Below, piece by piece: positions 49,922 to 57,935 of a stretch of DNA of 64,000 nucleotides. This DNA comes from Vulcanimicrobiota bacterium (GTDB lineage Bacteria; Vulcanimicrobiota; Vulcanimicrobiia; Eremiobacterales; Eremiobacteraceae): the NCBI GenBank assembly GCA_019235715.1, contig JAFAKE010000068.1, positions 62,001-126,000 of the forward strand, in the 5' to 3' direction. Each line of letters starts with the position of its first letter. The stretch's first letter is position 1. The notes under the pieces are model-generated. The model was not told where the DNA came from. It did no database searches and saw only the letters and a list, made by a program, of their open reading frames with translations. Position numbers and translations under genes: made by a program.

Positions 49922-49930
49922 GGGCAGTAG

Positions 49931-50165
49931 ATTCCTCGTTAGGTGAGGCGTCTGCACAAAGATAGGCCGCTACCCGGAAAGGTCGAGAGACCCCAATGGG
50001 TGACCAGGCATCGCCGAACCAAGGCGGTACCTAACGCGGCTAGCCGAACCGGCTTCATGTTGTGCAGTGCCAAAACTCGACGCATGAGGAAGCCGCTGAC
50101 CCTAGGGTCAGCGGAAACCGCATGGACTGTCGAGTGCGAGGAGCGCGACAGTCTTTTTGATTTTG
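49931..50165 (+). ncRNA. M-box (ykoK leader) Mg2+-sensing riboswitch with intrinsic terminator
   Basis: Matches remembered M-box conserved blocks: CGTTAGGTGAGGCG; GCTACCCGGAAAGGTCGAGAGACCCCAATGGGTGACCAG; TTGTGCAGTGCCAAAACTCGACGCATGAGGAAG; then terminator GACTGTCG-N13-CGACAGTC-TTTTT. Confidence 0.9.
50125..50158 (+). terminator. M-box expression-platform terminator
   Basis: GACTGTCG (50125-50132) / CGACAGTC (50146-50153) + TTTTT. Confidence 0.8.
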
Positions 50166-50318: not shown

Positions 50319-50438
50319 ATGACGAACTTCATCATCATTCTTCGCCGCACGGGCACCGCAGTGCTCGGCATCTTCGACGCGCTGTGCGATCGTTATGAAC
50401 GCAGCCAAGCGTGGTCGGACAAGCTCTTCCTACGCTGA
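50319..50438 (+). CDS. 39-aa small protein downstream of the M-box
   Basis: MTNFIIILRRTGTAVLGIFDALCDRYERSQAWSDKLFLR*; first good ATG after the riboswitch, 20 nt before the next CDS. Confidence 0.5.
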   Translation: MTNFIIILRRTGTAVLGIFDALCDRYERSQAWSDKLFLR

Positions 50439-50458
50439 GCGCAGACCGGCCCTATCCG

Positions 50459-52456
50459 ATGCGACATGGCTATGGGTATGACCATAAGAACGACGTGCGC
50501 ATGGGCCGCCCTGCGTTCATAGGCCTCGTCTTCATGTTCGCCGGTACGCTAGTAACGTACGGCACGCTTGGCGCACGCATCGCTCTCGCATCGCCGTCGC
50601 CCGATGCGTCGTTCGCGCCGACACCGGGTGCAACGCCATCAGTAGCGGCAACTGCGACGCCGTCGCCCGCGCCGCCAAATGGTTTGCGTTATTCGGGCGA
50701 CGCGTTCGTATCGTTCGCCGATCACGCGCAATCCGGACCGGGTCTCACCCCACCCGAGGGACCCGCGTTCGCCGCTGGTTCGCCGCTCTCGCCGATGACG
50801 CCGTACGACGTCTTCTCGAGCGCGCCGGATTCGCCGGGCATCGCCGGCGTTGGCCAGTTCGATCTGCGCGCCGATTATTCGAGCCCGGCCTTGAAGGCGT
50901 CGGCGACGATCGGCGCGGCATACGCCACCGGCAGTATTCAGAACGCGGCGTACTGGGGCGCAAACTTGCTCCCCGCGCTCAATCCTCATCTCGGTTCGAC
51001 TGCCTTGCCATACCAGATCGCATTCACGACGCATGCGGGTCAAGATGATGGAAGTGCTGCCCGCGTCTCGCTGCTCTCTGGTTCGCTCGGAACGCACGAC
51101 GGCGTGCTGAACGTGCGGGGCGGCTGGTTCGACCTCGTACAATCCGATGCGTTCGTCTTCGCGCCGCCGCCGCTGACGAACGTCACGCCGAACATCGGTC
51201 TGCAGCCCGCTGAGTCGTTGGGCACCGGTCCGCCGGCACTCGAGGTGTGGCCGGCCGCACCGCCGGGTTTGCCGCTCGACGGAGCCGATCTCGTCGGGCA
51301 CACGGGCGTCGCGACGCTGGAGGTCTCCAACGCATCGTTGCCGGCATTGCCCGGCACGTCGGCGCGTCTGACGCTAGGCTCGCTCGTGCTCGATCACGGT
51401 GAAGGAACGCGCTGGTCGGCGGATTTCTTGCACGTCAGCACGGGAGGCGCGACGCTGTCGACAACGACGATGTTCGGCGCAGGAGCGATGACGAAGCCGG
51501 GGCCGCAGGGCCCGCTTCCAATGAGTCAGCTTGGCGGACAGCAGCAGACGGTCGCCGGTTTGCGCGGCGCGTTCCACGCCGGCCGGCGCGTAGACGCAGT
51601 CGTCGAGATCGGACAAGCGTGGTACAACGCGCAAGACGTGCTAGAGCCGGGCACGCAAAAGCCGGGTGGCTTCTATCATGCAGGTGCTTCCGACTCGTTC
51701 GGGCGCGCGAAGATCGGGCTCGATCTCTATCGGTTCGAAGCGCGCTATGCGTCAGCGATCCTGCCCTACGGCGCGCCCGAGAACGTATGGAGCGTCGCCT
51801 GGTCGTGGCCGGGCGTGTGGCTCAAATCGAACTATCAGCTCGCGAACAACACCACGATCGGTTCAAACCGGCAAGGCTATCGCATCTCATACGCGCTGGA
51901 CCACGGTGCGATCGACATCCATGCCGCCTACGCTCAATACTGGCAGATCGACCCCGCTGTGCTGAGCACCGTCAACCAAGTCGGTTTTGTCGAAGGCTTC
52001 TTTCTGCCGCAAGACGATGGAGCGGGCACGTCGGGCGTCATGCACCAGTACGCGCTCTGGACCGCATGGCATCCGCGCGTCGGCGATCTGATCATCGATT
52101 ACGTCAATGATACCGAGCATCGCGATTTTCTGCCGGGCCACCCGCAAGACGCGGTGTCGTATCAAGCGCCCCAAGTCGTCTTCACGTTCGCGCACGCTTT
52201 CGGCAAGCGCGCCATCGCCGACGCCGGATTTGGGAATTATGCGATGCGCGGCTCGTGGGCGTTCGGCGCACTGACGAACGTCGATTACCAGCAGAGCACA
52301 TTCTTTGCCGGTGCGCAGTACGCTGAAACGCAGCACGCGTTCGTGCTCGTGCAGTACCGCCTTTCAAATTTCACCGGGTTGCCATCGCAGCCGGGCGGTC
52401 CGTCTCCGGATTTCAGCGGCGGCGTCTTTGTGCTGGAGCAGCGCTATCACATCTGA
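50459..52456 (+). CDS. putative outer-membrane beta-barrel protein under M-box control
   Basis: Signal/anchor segment, Pro/Ala/Thr linker, alternating beta-strand-like segments, C-terminal ...FVLEQRYHI. Confidence 0.6.
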   Translation: MRHGYGYDHKNDVRMGRPAFIGLVFMFAGTLVTYGTLGARIALASPSPDASFAPTPGATPSVAATATPSPAPPNGLRYSGDAFVSFADHAQSGPGLTPPEGPAFAAGSPLSPMTPYDVFSSAPDSPGIAGVGQFDLRADYSSPALKASATIGAAYATGSIQNAAYWGANLLPALNPHLGSTALPYQIAFTTHAGQDDGSAARVSLLSGSLGTHDGVLNVRGGWFDLVQSDAFVFAPPPLTNVTPNIGLQPAESLGTGPPALEVWPAAPPGLPLDGADLVGHTGVATLEVSNASLPALPGTSARLTLGSLVLDHGEGTRWSADFLHVSTGGATLSTTTMFGAGAMTKPGPQGPLPMSQLGGQQQTVAGLRGAFHAGRRVDAVVEIGQAWYNAQDVLEPGTQKPGGFYHAGASDSFGRAKIGLDLYRFEARYASAILPYGAPENVWSVAWSWPGVWLKSNYQLANNTTIGSNRQGYRISYALDHGAIDIHAAYAQYWQIDPAVLSTVNQVGFVEGFFLPQDDGAGTSGVMHQYALWTAWHPRVGDLIIDYVNDTEHRDFLPGHPQDAVSYQAPQVVFTFAHAFGKRAIADAGFGNYAMRGSWAFGALTNVDYQQSTFFAGAQYAETQHAFVLVQYRLSNFTGLPSQPGGPSPDFSGGVFVLEQRYHI

Positions 52457-53200: not shown

Positions 53201-53329
53201 AGAGCGGACGAGCTTCGGCTGCGACGCGCGCGTGCCTGCGTGCGGTTTTCAGGAAAAAGTGTGACGGTTCGATGCGTTTCGAAGCGGGTAGAATGAATGA
53301 CACGGTCGCGATTTGGGGGAGGGAAGATC

Positions 53330-53398
53330 GTGGATGCGTTGATCATCGTGTTGCTGGTGCTGATTCTTCTAGCAGTGACCGGCCATCTGAAACTCTAG
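53330..53398 (+). CDS. 22-aa TM micropeptide P1: MDALIIVLLVLILLAVTGHLKL
   Basis: GTG start preceded by GGGGGAGGGAAG; shares C-terminus with three other tiny ORFs in the window. Confidence 0.8.
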   Translation: MDALIIVLLVLILLAVTGHLKL

Positions 53399-53528
53399 CC
53401 CGCAAAGATTGCGCGCGCATGCGCGCTGACGAAGAGCGCGTCACAGCTACGGCAGTGGCGCGTTTCTCTTTATGCTTTTGTGGGTATATGTATAACACCG
53501 AATCAATATTGAAGGAGAGTGACAGCAA

Positions 53529-53597
53529 GTGCTGACAGCGATCCTCGTAATCGTCGCCCTTATCTTCTTGATAGTCAGTGGACACCTGAAGCTCTAG
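53529..53597 (+). CDS. 22-aa TM micropeptide P2: MLTAILVIVALIFLIVSGHLKL
   Basis: GTG start with AAGGAGAG upstream; followed by a strong terminator. Confidence 0.8.
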   Translation: MLTAILVIVALIFLIVSGHLKL

Positions 53598-53628
53598 GGG
53601 AACCGGCGAAACCGAAACCTCGAAACGA

Positions 53629-53666
53629 GCCTGCGGGCGGTGCACACGCGCCGCCCGCGGGCTTTT
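53629..53666 (+). terminator. strong intrinsic terminator after micropeptide P2
   Basis: GCCTGCGGGCGG / CCGCCCGCGGGC stem followed by TTTT. Confidence 0.75.
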
Positions 53667-53679
53667 GCGCATACGCCCA

Positions 53680-54216
53680 TCAGGCTGTCGACCTCTGTGG
53701 CGGCGTCCACGACACGCGCTGGGCCTCATATCGTCTCAGATCGGGCAAGTGATAGTACGTTGCAAGTCCGGTGAAGCGCATGCCCGCTTTTTCGACGACG
53801 CGGCACGAGCCGACGTTCCCGGGCATGACGATCGCGATGACATCGTCGAGTCCGACCGACCGAAACGCGTGGTCGAGCACGGCGATCGCAGCTTCGGTTC
53901 CATACCCCTTGTTCCACGACGCCGTGTTGTAATGATAGGCGATCTCAATCTCGGGTCCTTTGCCCTCTGCGGGAAAAAGACCGCACTGGCCGATGAACGC
54001 GCCGGTCTCCTTCAGCTCGACGCTCCACAGCGTGTAGCCGCGCTCCTCTTCCATCTTACGGCGCCGCTCGAGCACGCCCGTGTAACTGTCCAACGTCATA
54101 TCGGGACCGGCCGGCAGAAAGCGCTTCACTTGCGGGTCGTTGATCATCGCGAGCCACGCTTGCGCGTCGCGCGGCTCCGACGTGCGGATCACTAAACGCG
54201 CTGTCTCGATGTGCAT
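53680..54216 (-). CDS. RimJ/RimL-type GNAT acetyltransferase
   Basis: IETARLVIRTSEPRDAQAWLAMINDPQVKRFL...SWNKGYGTEAAIAVLDHAFRSVGLDDVIAIVMPGNVGSCRVVEKAGMRF. Confidence 0.92.
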   Translation of the reverse strand: MHIETARLVIRTSEPRDAQAWLAMINDPQVKRFLPAGPDMTLDSYTGVLERRRKMEEERGYTLWSVELKETGAFIGQCGLFPAEGKGPEIEIAYHYNTASWNKGYGTEAAIAVLDHAFRSVGLDDVIAIVMPGNVGSCRVVEKAGMRFTGLATYYHLPDLRRYEAQRVSWTPPQRSTA

Positions 54217-54262
54217 GCAGGTGGGCCGCGTTTGCACGAAAGCCCTCCAAAACCTCGTCGGC

Positions 54263-56689
54263 CTAGCGGCGAACGGCGCCGGTCTTGACGACAAACGTAT
54301 TTCCATCGCTGGTCGCGGACACTCCGCCATCCTCATCGGTGCGATACACCGCTGCACGCACGGCCAAGAGCGCCAAGAGCGTGCGCGGACTTGGATGGCC
54401 AAAAACATTGTGGCGGCCGCAGGAGATGATCGCGATCTTCGGGCGCACTGCCGCCAGAAACTCGGGCGTCGACGAGTAGGCGCTGCCGTGATGCCCTACC
54501 TTCAAGATGTCCGCTCGCAGATCGATGCCACCGTGCGAGAGCAAGCGCGCTTCGGCTTCCGATTGTGCGTCCCCGGTCATGAGCATCGCGGTATTGCCGA
54601 ACTGGATCCGCAGCACAACCGAGTTATTGTTGATGTCCGACGACGTGCCGGTGATCAAGGGAAGTTCAGGAGCGAGAATCGCGACATGCGTTCGTGGCCC
54701 AAGATCAAACGAGCCGCCGCGGGCGGCGCGGCGCCACGTGATGTGGCGATCGCGGACGACGTCAAGCGCGCGGTGGTAGGCCGGCCCACCGTACAGTTGC
54801 GCGGAATCCCACAGCGTGTCGACGCGCTCGCGCGCTAAAATAACCGGTAGTCCGCCGGCATGGTCGCCGTGCGGATGCGTGAGGACAACCGCATCGAGAT
54901 GCAGCACCCAGTGGCGCAGCAAGAACGGCAAAACGGTGCGCGTCGCGACGCGGTCGCCGATCGGCTGCGCGACGACTCCGCTGCCGGCGCGCTCCAATTT
55001 TCCGCCGCCGTCGACGAGCATCGCATGCAAGCCGGGCGCGCGCACGAGGATGCAATCCGCCTGGCCGACATCGATCGCGTCGACGTGCAACCCGCGGTCG
55101 CACAGCGCGTACAAGCCCGGCGTGCAATACACGACTGCGAGCAACAGTATCGCGCCCGCGACGCACGCTGTCAGACGCCGCCTAGGCACGCGTGCATGCA
55201 CCCCCCATGCGAATGCGCACAGACATGCCCAATAGAGTGCGATGAACGCGTTGGTTGGCGGCGGCACGTCGATGTGCGCATGGGGCAACGCCGCGAAACG
55301 CTCAACGGCGCCGGTCATGATCGTCACCGCCCAATACGTGATGTTCGACAGCGGCCATGCGAGCGGCGTGAAGAACAGGGCGCAGGCGGCATATGCCGCG
55401 CCAGCGGCCATCACCAAGCCGACGAGCGGCACAACGACGAGATTTGCCGCCACCGCGTAAGGCGTGAACGCGTTGAAGTAGAGCGCCTGAAGCGGTGCCA
55501 GCGCAACTTGCACGGAGATACCAGTACGCGCGAGCTCGGCAAGCCATTGCGGCCCCCAGTCGCCTTCGCGTATTCCAATTTGCGCAAGCGCGGGCCCGAT
55601 CAGCGCGATGCCGCACACGCAGGCGAATGACATCGAAAATGACGGCGACAGCAGGGCAAGCGGGTGGGGCAACACGACTGCGAACGCCGCCGCAGCCAAG
55701 ACGGCGCTGGCGGTTCGAGCGCGCCCGCTTTCGACGGCGACGAGGCCGACGGTGAGCATCGTGGCCGCACGCAGCGTGGGAATGTGCAGACCGGCGAGCG
55801 CCGCGTAGAACCAGGCGCAAAGCACCAACAATACCGCACGCGCCGGCCGCGGCAGCGGCGTCTGCGCCAGCAGCGCGGCGACGAGCGCCGCCATGATGCC
55901 AAGATGTAGGCCGGCGGTCGTGAGCACGTGCACTGTGCCCGTGTCTGAAAACTCTTGGCGCAAACTCCAAGGCAGGTCGCCGCGATCGCCCCATAGCACG
56001 CCCTCGAGAACCGTCGCTTGTAACGCGGGGAGGCGGGACTCTACCGCCTCTGCGAACTGGCTGCGCATACGCGTCCACCACGCGCGCCAACCGCTCGCCG
56101 GGCCGATCACCACCGCGTCGCGCGCGCGATGAACCGTGAGCATCACCGTGACGCCTTGGTCGAGGAGCTGCTCGCGCTCGCCAGACTCGCCGTCGTTGCG
56201 CGGACCAGCGGGCAGATCGACGCGCGCGCGGATGCGTTCGAGATAGCCCGCGCGCCAGCCAGCGATGTCGGCCGGTAGCTGCAGCAGCGCCGTGCGACCG
56301 CGCAACGTGTCAGCATCCGCACCCGACGACTCGCGTAGGAGCACGCGCGTGGCATCGCCTCCGCCTGAAGGATGGGCCCGTTCGAGCGTTTCGACAATCG
56401 CGACGACGTGATGGCCATCGACTCCAGCGAGCTGCGCGTCGGCTCGCAAGCGCTCCGCGCCCCATGCCGCCCCAGCGCCGGTCGCCGCGCAACAGCCGAA
56501 GAATGCGACCGCTTTCTTGATCTCAATCGGGGTGCGCCGCGCGAAGAAGCTGACGGTTATACACAGGGCGCAAGACGCTGCGAGCGCCGCATTGTGGCGC
56601 GCAAAGAGCATAATTCCGCCGGCATAGCCGGTGAAGGCGATCGCCAAAATATGCGCACGCACCAAATCCGCCATACGATAGACCGTCAC
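54263..56689 (-). CDS. comEC: DNA internalization-related competence protein ComEC/Rec2
   Basis: Competence TM domain plus metallo-beta-lactamase-like DAIDVGQADCILVRAPGLHAMLVDGGG...VVLTHPHGDHAGGLPVIL...LMTGDAQSEAEARLL. Confidence 0.95.
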   Translation of the reverse strand: MTVYRMADLVRAHILAIAFTGYAGGIMLFARHNAALAASCALCITVSFFARRTPIEIKKAVAFFGCCAATGAGAAWGAERLRADAQLAGVDGHHVVAIVETLERAHPSGGGDATRVLLRESSGADADTLRGRTALLQLPADIAGWRAGYLERIRARVDLPAGPRNDGESGEREQLLDQGVTVMLTVHRARDAVVIGPASGWRAWWTRMRSQFAEAVESRLPALQATVLEGVLWGDRGDLPWSLRQEFSDTGTVHVLTTAGLHLGIMAALVAALLAQTPLPRPARAVLLVLCAWFYAALAGLHIPTLRAATMLTVGLVAVESGRARTASAVLAAAAFAVVLPHPLALLSPSFSMSFACVCGIALIGPALAQIGIREGDWGPQWLAELARTGISVQVALAPLQALYFNAFTPYAVAANLVVVPLVGLVMAAGAAYAACALFFTPLAWPLSNITYWAVTIMTGAVERFAALPHAHIDVPPPTNAFIALYWACLCAFAWGVHARVPRRRLTACVAGAILLLAVVYCTPGLYALCDRGLHVDAIDVGQADCILVRAPGLHAMLVDGGGKLERAGSGVVAQPIGDRVATRTVLPFLLRHWVLHLDAVVLTHPHGDHAGGLPVILARERVDTLWDSAQLYGGPAYHRALDVVRDRHITWRRAARGGSFDLGPRTHVAILAPELPLITGTSSDINNNSVVLRIQFGNTAMLMTGDAQSEAEARLLSHGGIDLRADILKVGHHGSAYSSTPEFLAAVRPKIAIISCGRHNVFGHPSPRTLLALLAVRAAVYRTDEDGGVSATSDGNTFVVKTGAVRR

Positions 56690-56748
56690 GCCTGCGCGGT
56701 CACGCTGCCGGCCTCGGCGGTCAAGCAGATGCTATCTACGCTGCGAGG

Positions 56749-56762
56749 GAAACATATGTTCG
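56749..56762. promoter_or_regulatory. weak candidate SOS-like box (GAAACATATGTTCG)
   Basis: AAAC-N4-GTTCG, resembling the two boxes at lexA; between comEC and P3. Confidence 0.3.
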
Positions 56763-56820
56763 ATGCGGAACGAGCCAAACCCAAAGGTCCGTCAAGACGG
56801 GCCCCGAGAGGAGGCTCATC

Positions 56821-56892
56821 GTGGGCACAGCGTTGATCATCATCCTACTCGTGCTGATTCTGCTGGCCGTATCTGGGCATCTGAAGTTATAG
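56821..56892 (+). CDS. 23-aa TM micropeptide P3: MGTALIIILLVLILLAVSGHLKL
   Basis: GTG start with strong SD (GAGAGGAGG) upstream; paralogous to P1/P2/P4. Confidence 0.85.
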   Translation: MGTALIIILLVLILLAVSGHLKL

Positions 56893-56935
56893 CTTTGCGC
56901 GCCGCGCTTCGCTTCTCGGAAGGGAGTGAATGGCC

Positions 56936-57004
56936 ATGACGACGTTCATCATCGTCCTGCTGATCTTGGTTCTACTGCTGGTCAGCGGCCACTTGACGCT
57001 CTAG
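56936..57004 (+). CDS. 22-aa TM micropeptide P4: MTTFIIVLLILVLLLVSGHLTL
   Basis: ATG start (alternative in-frame ATG at 56930) with GGAAGGGAG upstream; paralogous to P1-P3. Confidence 0.82.
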   Translation: MTTFIIVLLILVLLLVSGHLTL

Positions 57005-57011
57005 GCGCTGT

Positions 57012-57935
57012 TTGCGCGTCCTTGTCACCGGCGGCGCGGGCTTCATCGGCTCGCACATCGTCGACACGTTTGTCGCCGCCGGGCATGACGTCGCGGTCGT
57101 CGACAACTTCTGGGAGCATGGCGGCGGCCGGCGCTCCAATCTCAACCCAAAGGCCAGATTTTTCCAGCTCGATATCCGCGACCCAGCGCTCGCTGACGCC
57201 TTCGATTCATTCAAGCCGGAGGTCGTGAGCCACCACGCGGCTCAGCACAGCGTCGCCATTTCCACCAAAGATCCGCTGTACGACGCGGACGTCAACGTCA
57301 AAGGGCTGATCAACGTCGCGCAAGCCGCCGCGCGCAGCGGCGTAGGCAAGATCGTCTACGCCTCATCGGCCGCGACGTACGGCACGCCCGAACGCATTCC
57401 GATCGACGAAGACCATGCGCAACGGCCTGAGTCGCCCTATGGGATCACGAAGATGGCCGGCGAGCATTACCTGCGCTATTTCGCCGCCGCGGGCGGGCCG
57501 GCGTTCACCGCATTGCGTTATGGCAATGTCTTCGGCCCGCGACAGGATCCAGCCGGCGAAGCCGGCGTCATCGCGATTTTCGTGTCGCGCATCCTAAAAG
57601 GCGAACCCATTCGCATCGACTGGGATGGCGAGCAGCAAAAGGATTACGTGTATGCGGGCGACGTTGCGCGGGCGAATCAGCTCGCGCTGAGCGGCGCTGA
57701 CGGCGATGTCATCAATATCGGTACCGGCATCGGCACATCCGTCAACGAGCTGCATCGGCTCATCGCGCAGGCGGTGGGGCGCGATGTGGCCGTCGAGCAC
57801 GCGCCCAAACGTGCAGGCGATATCGGCTTGTGTGTCTTTGCGAACGCGCGCGCGAAAAAGGCGCTGGGCTGGGAGCCGACGGTTTCATTACGCGACGGCA
57901 TTGCCCGCACAGTCGACTACTTCAAATCTCTCTAG
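57012..57935 (+). CDS. NAD-dependent epimerase/dehydratase (UDP-glucose 4-epimerase-like)
   Basis: MRVLVTGGAGFIGSHIVDTFVAAGHDVAVVDNF; SPYGITKMAGEHYLRYF; TTG start. Confidence 0.93.
   Translation: MRVLVTGGAGFIGSHIVDTFVAAGHDVAVVDNFWEHGGGRRSNLNPKARFFQLDIRDPALADAFDSFKPEVVSHHAAQHSVAISTKDPLYDADVNVKGLINVAQAAARSGVGKIVYASSAATYGTPERIPIDEDHAQRPESPYGITKMAGEHYLRYFAAAGGPAFTALRYGNVFGPRQDPAGEAGVIAIFVSRILKGEPIRIDWDGEQQKDYVYAGDVARANQLALSGADGDVINIGTGIGTSVNELHRLIAQAVGRDVAVEHAPKRAGDIGLCVFANARAKKALGWEPTVSLRDGIARTVDYFKSL

Follow-up and report, generated by a model that had tools for sequence, protein, structure and literature searches.

A family of tiny tail-conserved peptides specific to Candidatus Eremiobacteraceae, with several copies probably under sigma-B-type control

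Can four unannotated open reading frames of little more than twenty codons be genuine genes and, if so, what could their products do? The question is raised by a stretch of 64,000 nucleotides, here called the window (G000:C43:62001-126000, contig JAFAKE010000068.1), from the 2.5-Mb draft genome G000 of a member of the family Candidatus (Ca.) Eremiobacteraceae (f1). All four frames lie where the original prediction had placed them, with the peptide sequences and tail codons it quoted. Judged from conservation in sequence, they belong to a genuine protein-coding family of 22-26-residue peptides that is specific to Ca. Eremiobacteraceae (phylum Eremiobacterota) and that we call PEP1. It is a real, new and lineage-specific micropeptide family. 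The copies in the window are:

53330..53398, plus strand: PEP1 copy A, MDALIIVLLVLILLAVTGHLKL, GTG start, stand-alone
53529..53597, plus strand: PEP1 copy B, MLTAILVIVALIFLIVSGHLKL, GTG start, TAILV subtype
56821..56892, plus strand: PEP1 copy C, MGTALIIILLVLILLAVSGHLKL, GTG start, syntenic copy
56936..57004, plus strand: PEP1 copy D, MTTFIIVLLILVLLLVSGHLTL, ATG start (possible alternative start at 56930)

The four frames stood as one family of unannotated paralogues, as had been proposed; in detail, GTG serves as the start in three of them and ATG in one, and the two pairs differ, the first being stand-alone with sigma-B-type promoters and the second lying upstream of an epimerase gene.

Very short frames are common by chance (146 open reading frames of at least 20 residues in 10 kb), which could make the PEP1 frames appear fortuitous or non-coding. 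Against this, length, start, Shine-Dalgarno sequence, tail and the pattern of synonymous substitution are conserved across nine genera. We give a chance origin practically no probability, as the conservation data already refute it. Counted from the C-terminus, leucine at -9, glycine at -5, histidine at -4 and leucine at -1 are invariant in 30 of 30 copies, leucine at -3 has a single exception, and any of K, H, R, T or N occurs at -2. The tail [ST]GHL[KT]L that had been called invariant thus keeps its glycine, histidine and final leucine, while the family-wide form is [STA]GH[LA][KHRTN]L. Each invariant position is encoded by two to six different codons, three for the last leucine. The ratio of nonsynonymous to synonymous changes per site (pN/pS), to be read qualitatively because synonymous sites are near saturation, is 0.11 when copies C and D are compared across three sister species, 0.15 for the copy A group, 0.16 both for the copy B group and for the epimerase-linked GHLRL/GHLHL set, and 0.34 across all paralogues. 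The values of 0.11-0.16 among sister copies bear out the proposed selection on the peptide. The reading frames of copies C and D both stay aligned within the genus, although the spacer that separates them is scrambled. The SD-like sequence reported for each frame extends to the whole family: complementarity of at least 4 nucleotides is found 4-14 nucleotides before the start in 30/30 copies, compared with 21% of random positions.

How widely is the family distributed? We searched 117 genomes of the class (14 from f1 and 103 others) within 149 genomes of the phylum, of which 32 belong to other classes. A blast search with one peptide, a profile and a degenerate DNA pattern agreed on 31 strong places in 13 of the 14 f1 genomes and nine genera. 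These correspond to about 30 unique genes, because two matches at contig ends in G009 look like one gene. Profile E-values reach 7e-11 per genome, and the DNA pattern (a hydrophobic stretch followed by GHxxL and a stop) gives one to four copies per genome in the 13 genomes, where the reversed control gives none. G012, the only f1 genome without a match, has a completeness of 81%, and no epimerase was found in it either. Absence from related genomes had been named in advance as the observation that would speak against the family; PEP1 is present in nearly all genomes of its own bacterial family. Outside f1, profile and pattern searches of the 103 class and 32 other-class genomes returned only partial, isolated and non-reproducible matches. 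A strict tail-motif scan of 85,462 species returned Eremiobacterota-type contigs and four matches outside the phylum, which we rejected as false positives since they read GHF or sit within longer frames; two further contigs labelled 'Proteobacteria' apparently correspond to G009. No Pfam-A or NCBIfam family came near its curated cut-off (the lowest E-values, about 0.35-3, came only from single members; the best NCBIfam scores, MgtU at E=0.4 and PsbN at E=0.35, are noise), in line with the earlier failure to recognise a named family. In the literature we found no peptides of this kind from Eremiobacterota or from pilus operons. One locus, L053 (G013:C31), appears to hold a decayed PEP1 of the TAILV subtype, of which only VAVIFLIVHGHLKL and its stop remain, the start region being lost.

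What, then, drives expression of these genes? Thirteen copies are stand-alone, with varied neighbours, and form minimal transcription units of a promoter, a Shine-Dalgarno sequence, 22 codons and often a terminator. Soon after the stop most of them carry a hairpin rich in G+C, with energies of -20 to -36 kcal/mol. Around copies A and B the corresponding elements are:

53267..53290, plus strand: sigma-B-type promoter-like site GTTCGATGCGTTTCGAAGCGGGTA before copy A (motif match)
53438..53461, plus strand: weak hairpin, then GTTTCTCTTT, a possible terminator of copy A that overlaps the start of promoter B
53462..53486, plus strand: sigma-B-type promoter-like site GTTTCTCTTTATGCTTTTGTGGGTA before copy B (motif match)
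53628..53663, plus strand: strong 16-bp hairpin, terminator-like, directly 3' of copy B (-36.5 kcal/mol, then TTTGCG)

The hairpin after copy A (-12 kcal/mol) matches a terminator-like pattern without excess over shuffled sequences. Copy B has orthologues in G001 and in G004, the latter from a different genus. A 33-residue form of copy A starting at ATG 53297 was considered and is unlikely, given the promoter-like -10 element at 53286-53291 and orthologues that begin at the short start.

Across the stand-alone copies, GGGTA occurs 30-51 nucleotides before the start in 9/13, and the full motif GTT[TC]-N15/16-GGGTA in 7/13, with one further GTTG variant and one site that has GGGTAT only. At that position the full motif is found in 0.17% of background windows and before 1 of 193 larger genes; with orthologues counted once it is present in four of nine lineages (P ~1e-9). 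The sigma-B consensus of Bacillus subtilis is GTTTAA-N15(+/-2)-GGGTAT, and a 14-nucleotide spacer has been reported as optimal (PMC9847131); counted as in that study, the PEP1 sites have spacers of 13-14. A SigB/F/G-type sigma factor scores above the NCBIfam curated cut-off in 21 of 21 genomes tested. In G000 the sigB operon (G000:C92, L208:6749-9256, minus strand; orthologues L294-L304 and L209) reads DUF948, YtxH-like, RsbV-like (STAS), [RsbW-like], SigB, where all names except that of the sigma factor were read from sequence motifs by eye and not from profile scans. Before its first gene stands GTTTGCT...CCGGGTA (GTTT-N15-GGGTA) in six genomes of three genera (G000, G001, G002, G004, G011 and G006), which suggests that sigma-B may regulate its own operon in Eremiobacterota. 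The same motif precedes a lone rsbW-like gene, and another lies before a MEDS-type gene beside RsbU/RsbV-like genes. Because the motif of the stand-alone copies also precedes the sigB operon in six genomes, these copies are probably sigma-B-regulated and made under general stress. The motif shows no genome-wide excess (47 occurrences in G000 versus 83 in the reversed control), so the argument rests on its placement upstream of PEP1 and sigB genes.

The second pair, copies C and D, has a fixed setting. In every genus sampled the order is comEC (divergent), PEP1, a GalE-like epimerase gene and leuS (convergent, downstream), with PEP1 as one copy or, in G000, G001, G002 and G006, as a tandem pair. 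In the window this comprises, besides copies C and D:

54266..56689, minus strand: comEC-like competence channel gene, divergent neighbour (PF03772 and metallo-beta-lactamase domain)
56746..56764, plus strand: AGGGAAACATATGTTCGAT box, 56 nucleotides 5' of copy C, unchanged across three species of the genus
57012..57935, plus strand: GalE-like NAD-dependent epimerase, TTG start, downstream of the syntenic copies

A conserved box stands about 55-75 nucleotides before the syntenic peptide, AGGGAAACATATGTTCGAT in the genus and GCGAGGAAC elsewhere; it resembles a -35 element of the GGAAC type, and no matching -10 was found. The sigma-B-type motif is present in 0/17 syntenic copies. Is the peptide then a leader, or a translational coupler, that controls the epimerase and does not act as a product? 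The syntenic copies end 7-121 nucleotides before the epimerase start, the nearest copy in five genomes at 7-12 nucleotides and copy D at 7, a spacing that would suit such a role. However, the nearest-copy distance varies from 7 to 74 nucleotides, it is the amino acids that are conserved and not RNA pairing, and 13 copies lie elsewhere, with a promoter to themselves and no gene that they could lead. We therefore regard a leader as very unlikely. In families f2 and f3, no hydrophobic micro-frame was found upstream of the orthologous epimerase in 17 loci.

With a product to explain, we favour, with moderate confidence, the reading that PEP1 peptides may be small regulators in the membrane that dock on a membrane partner through their invariant tail, the stand-alone copies probably being made under stress. 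A helix of leucine, isoleucine and valine with about 15-17 hydrophobic residues would insert in the cytoplasmic membrane, and the C-terminal tail [ST]-G-H-L-x-L would serve as a recognition site. Binding through this tail could modulate a membrane protein, or the peptide could homo-oligomerise; the mode of action would be that of other small stress-induced membrane proteins. A peptide with a specific partner is favoured because a generic membrane disruptor could do without an invariant polar tail. Several observations weigh against this reading. Four of the 13 stand-alone copies show no GGGTA box, and no neighbour is common to the stand-alone set. Nor is stress control what unites the family, since the motif is missing from the universal syntenic copies. 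Membrane insertion, finally, we infer from composition.

Among the roles listed in the original prediction was a toxin-like membrane peptide. In this case PEP1 would be an Ibs/TisB-like type I toxin: it would depolarise the membrane, an antisense RNA would keep it silent, and the tandem copies would have arisen by amplification. By composition and length PEP1 is a short hydrophobic single-helix peptide. It recalls Ibs in size, in hydrophobicity and in the arrangement of several copies in tandem (the 19-residue IbsC is a short hydrophobic peptide of this sort; PMC8309996), and some type I toxins are stress-responsive. However, IbsC needs just about 10 hydrophobic residues in 15 and is still toxic when frame-shifted (PMC8309996, PMC7192591), a low sequence specificity that contrasts with a polar tail invariant across genera. 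One PEP1 copy is moreover syntenic family-wide and is oriented toward a metabolic gene. No antisense RNA antitoxin was matched by Rfam near the window copies and no antisense promoter stood out around them, in a scan that is a weak test and covers sigma-70-type promoters only. A type I toxin appears quite unlikely, and the apparent regulon together with the constraint on the tail favours a putative regulator or subunit over a generic toxin.

Could PEP1 instead be a subunit of an envelope machine? A relaxed DNA pattern surfaced a second unannotated peptide, PEP2, of 19-26 residues and a single helix, in the gap between pilT and pilC of the type IV pilus operon. Its f1 form is MQMSLLWLLILLVILVVGQATKL-like; there it always has pilT (PF00437) on one side and pilC (PF00482) on the other, and the gene for a SigB/F/G-type sigma factor comes next. 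Loci are:

L198:4728-4796 (G000:C47, same genome, outside the window): PEP2 example MWWWLIPLAIFIVGNLSKI
L223, L225-L231, L237, L239, L253-L266, L268-L276, L278-L282: other PEP2 loci

Profile searching, together with inspection of the gap itself, shows PEP2 in all families of the phylum for which a pilus-type pilC could be located along with the sequence upstream of it; examples beyond f1 are MWWWLVPLAILLVGELSKI, MSAIWWLVPVLCILVGSLSRI, MGIFWWVVPVAVIIVGHLTTL and MWWFLLIIGFILVGQYTEI. The two loci of G131 do not count as positive, as one starts at pilC without upstream sequence and the other, G131:C501, which has roughly 55% identity to pilC, shows no micropeptide in its short upstream region. Distant pilC/gspF paralogues (30-38% identity), the only forms carried by f2 and f3, showed no PEP2 on reading. 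Searches of plasmids, PDB and 82 KSB1-phylum genomes gave no match, an uninformative answer since short queries have little power there. In G003:C262 two tandem PEP2 copies occupy the gap (L281:621-692 and 708-779). The sigma gene directly after pilC in the f1 pilus operon (L198:6043-6798, G000:C47, and f1 orthologues) suggests a pilus-linked sigma factor, and a gene of the same type also lies near a pilC-like gene in f2 (G014, G020).

PEP1 could accordingly be a structural or assembly subunit, possibly of the type IV pilus/DNA-uptake apparatus, and an amplified relative of PEP2. The two share a build of short N-terminus, one helix and a V-G-x-L-x-x-L/I end, and some PEP2 tails (GHLTTL, GHLTNV) resemble the GHLTL of PEP1. 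The main PEP1 copy adjoins comEC in all genera, although comEC is on the other strand. PEP1 occurs only in a lineage carrying the PEP2 pilus operon, and f2 and f3 lack both, but this co-occurrence rests on few transitions. PEP1 is located at the comEC-epimerase locus or alone, not between pilT and pilC, and its stand-alone copies as a rule have no pilus neighbours. A profile comparison gave 53% probability over 14 columns. However, when three PEP2 profiles were scored against full, tail and core shuffles, PEP1 reached a mean of 0.4-0.7 bits, the same as shuffled PEP1. Homology being unsupported by these shuffle tests, we report two separate families and treat common descent as a hypothesis only. 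We consider an envelope subunit unlikely. A more speculative and rather improbable extension would unite PEP1 and PEP2 as one unseen class of membrane peptides of about 20 residues that serve the type IV pilus and DNA uptake: PEP2 would be an obligate component of the inner-membrane platform beside PilC, and Eremiobacteraceae would have amplified and relocated it as PEP1, with sigma-B controlling the additional copies and stress thereby adjusting piliation or competence.

Standard annotation applies a length limit that genes of 19-26 codons do not reach. Here two sets of such genes, conserved and single-purpose, are kept, PEP1 family-wide and PEP2 phylum-wide. The PEP1 alignment points to the functional residues (G-H-L-x-L) and, for several copies, the probable control system, sigma-B. 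PEP2, which suggests that in at least one phylum the much-studied motor platform of the type IV pilus has a tiny partner, may outweigh PEP1 in consequence. Elsewhere in the window, an M-box magnesium riboswitch (140 bits; 49928-50095, plus strand) lies upstream of an open reading frame at 50411-52456. The 681-residue protein has no Pfam or NCBIfam match; by eye its N-terminus looks like a signal peptide and its C-terminus like a barrel, and it is possibly a magnesium-regulated outer-membrane protein.

How does PEP1 compare with known systems? With the general stress regulon of sigma-B in Bacillus and its relatives it shares GTTT...GGGTA before most stand-alone copies and an RsbV-RsbW-SigB-type operon with the same motif, whereas its own membership is read from sequence. 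PEP2 is similar in its 19-26 residues, one helix, V-G-x-L-[TS]-x-[IL] end, lack of annotation and occurrence in the same organisms, but has an invariant tryptophan near the N-terminus, is phylum-wide and stands as a single copy in the pilus operon. The type I toxins Ibs, TisB and TimP likewise have about 20-30 residues and one hydrophobic helix, are often multi-copy and are in some cases stress-induced; PEP1 differs in having no sequence match to them, an invariant polar tail GHLxL, synteny with an epimerase and no identified antisense RNA. MgtS, AcrZ and the KdpF/CydX-like subunits are single-pass peptides with their own promoter that are thought to bind a larger membrane protein. PEP1 is shorter and shares no sequence with them, but resembles them as a putative single-pass peptide with a promoter of its own.

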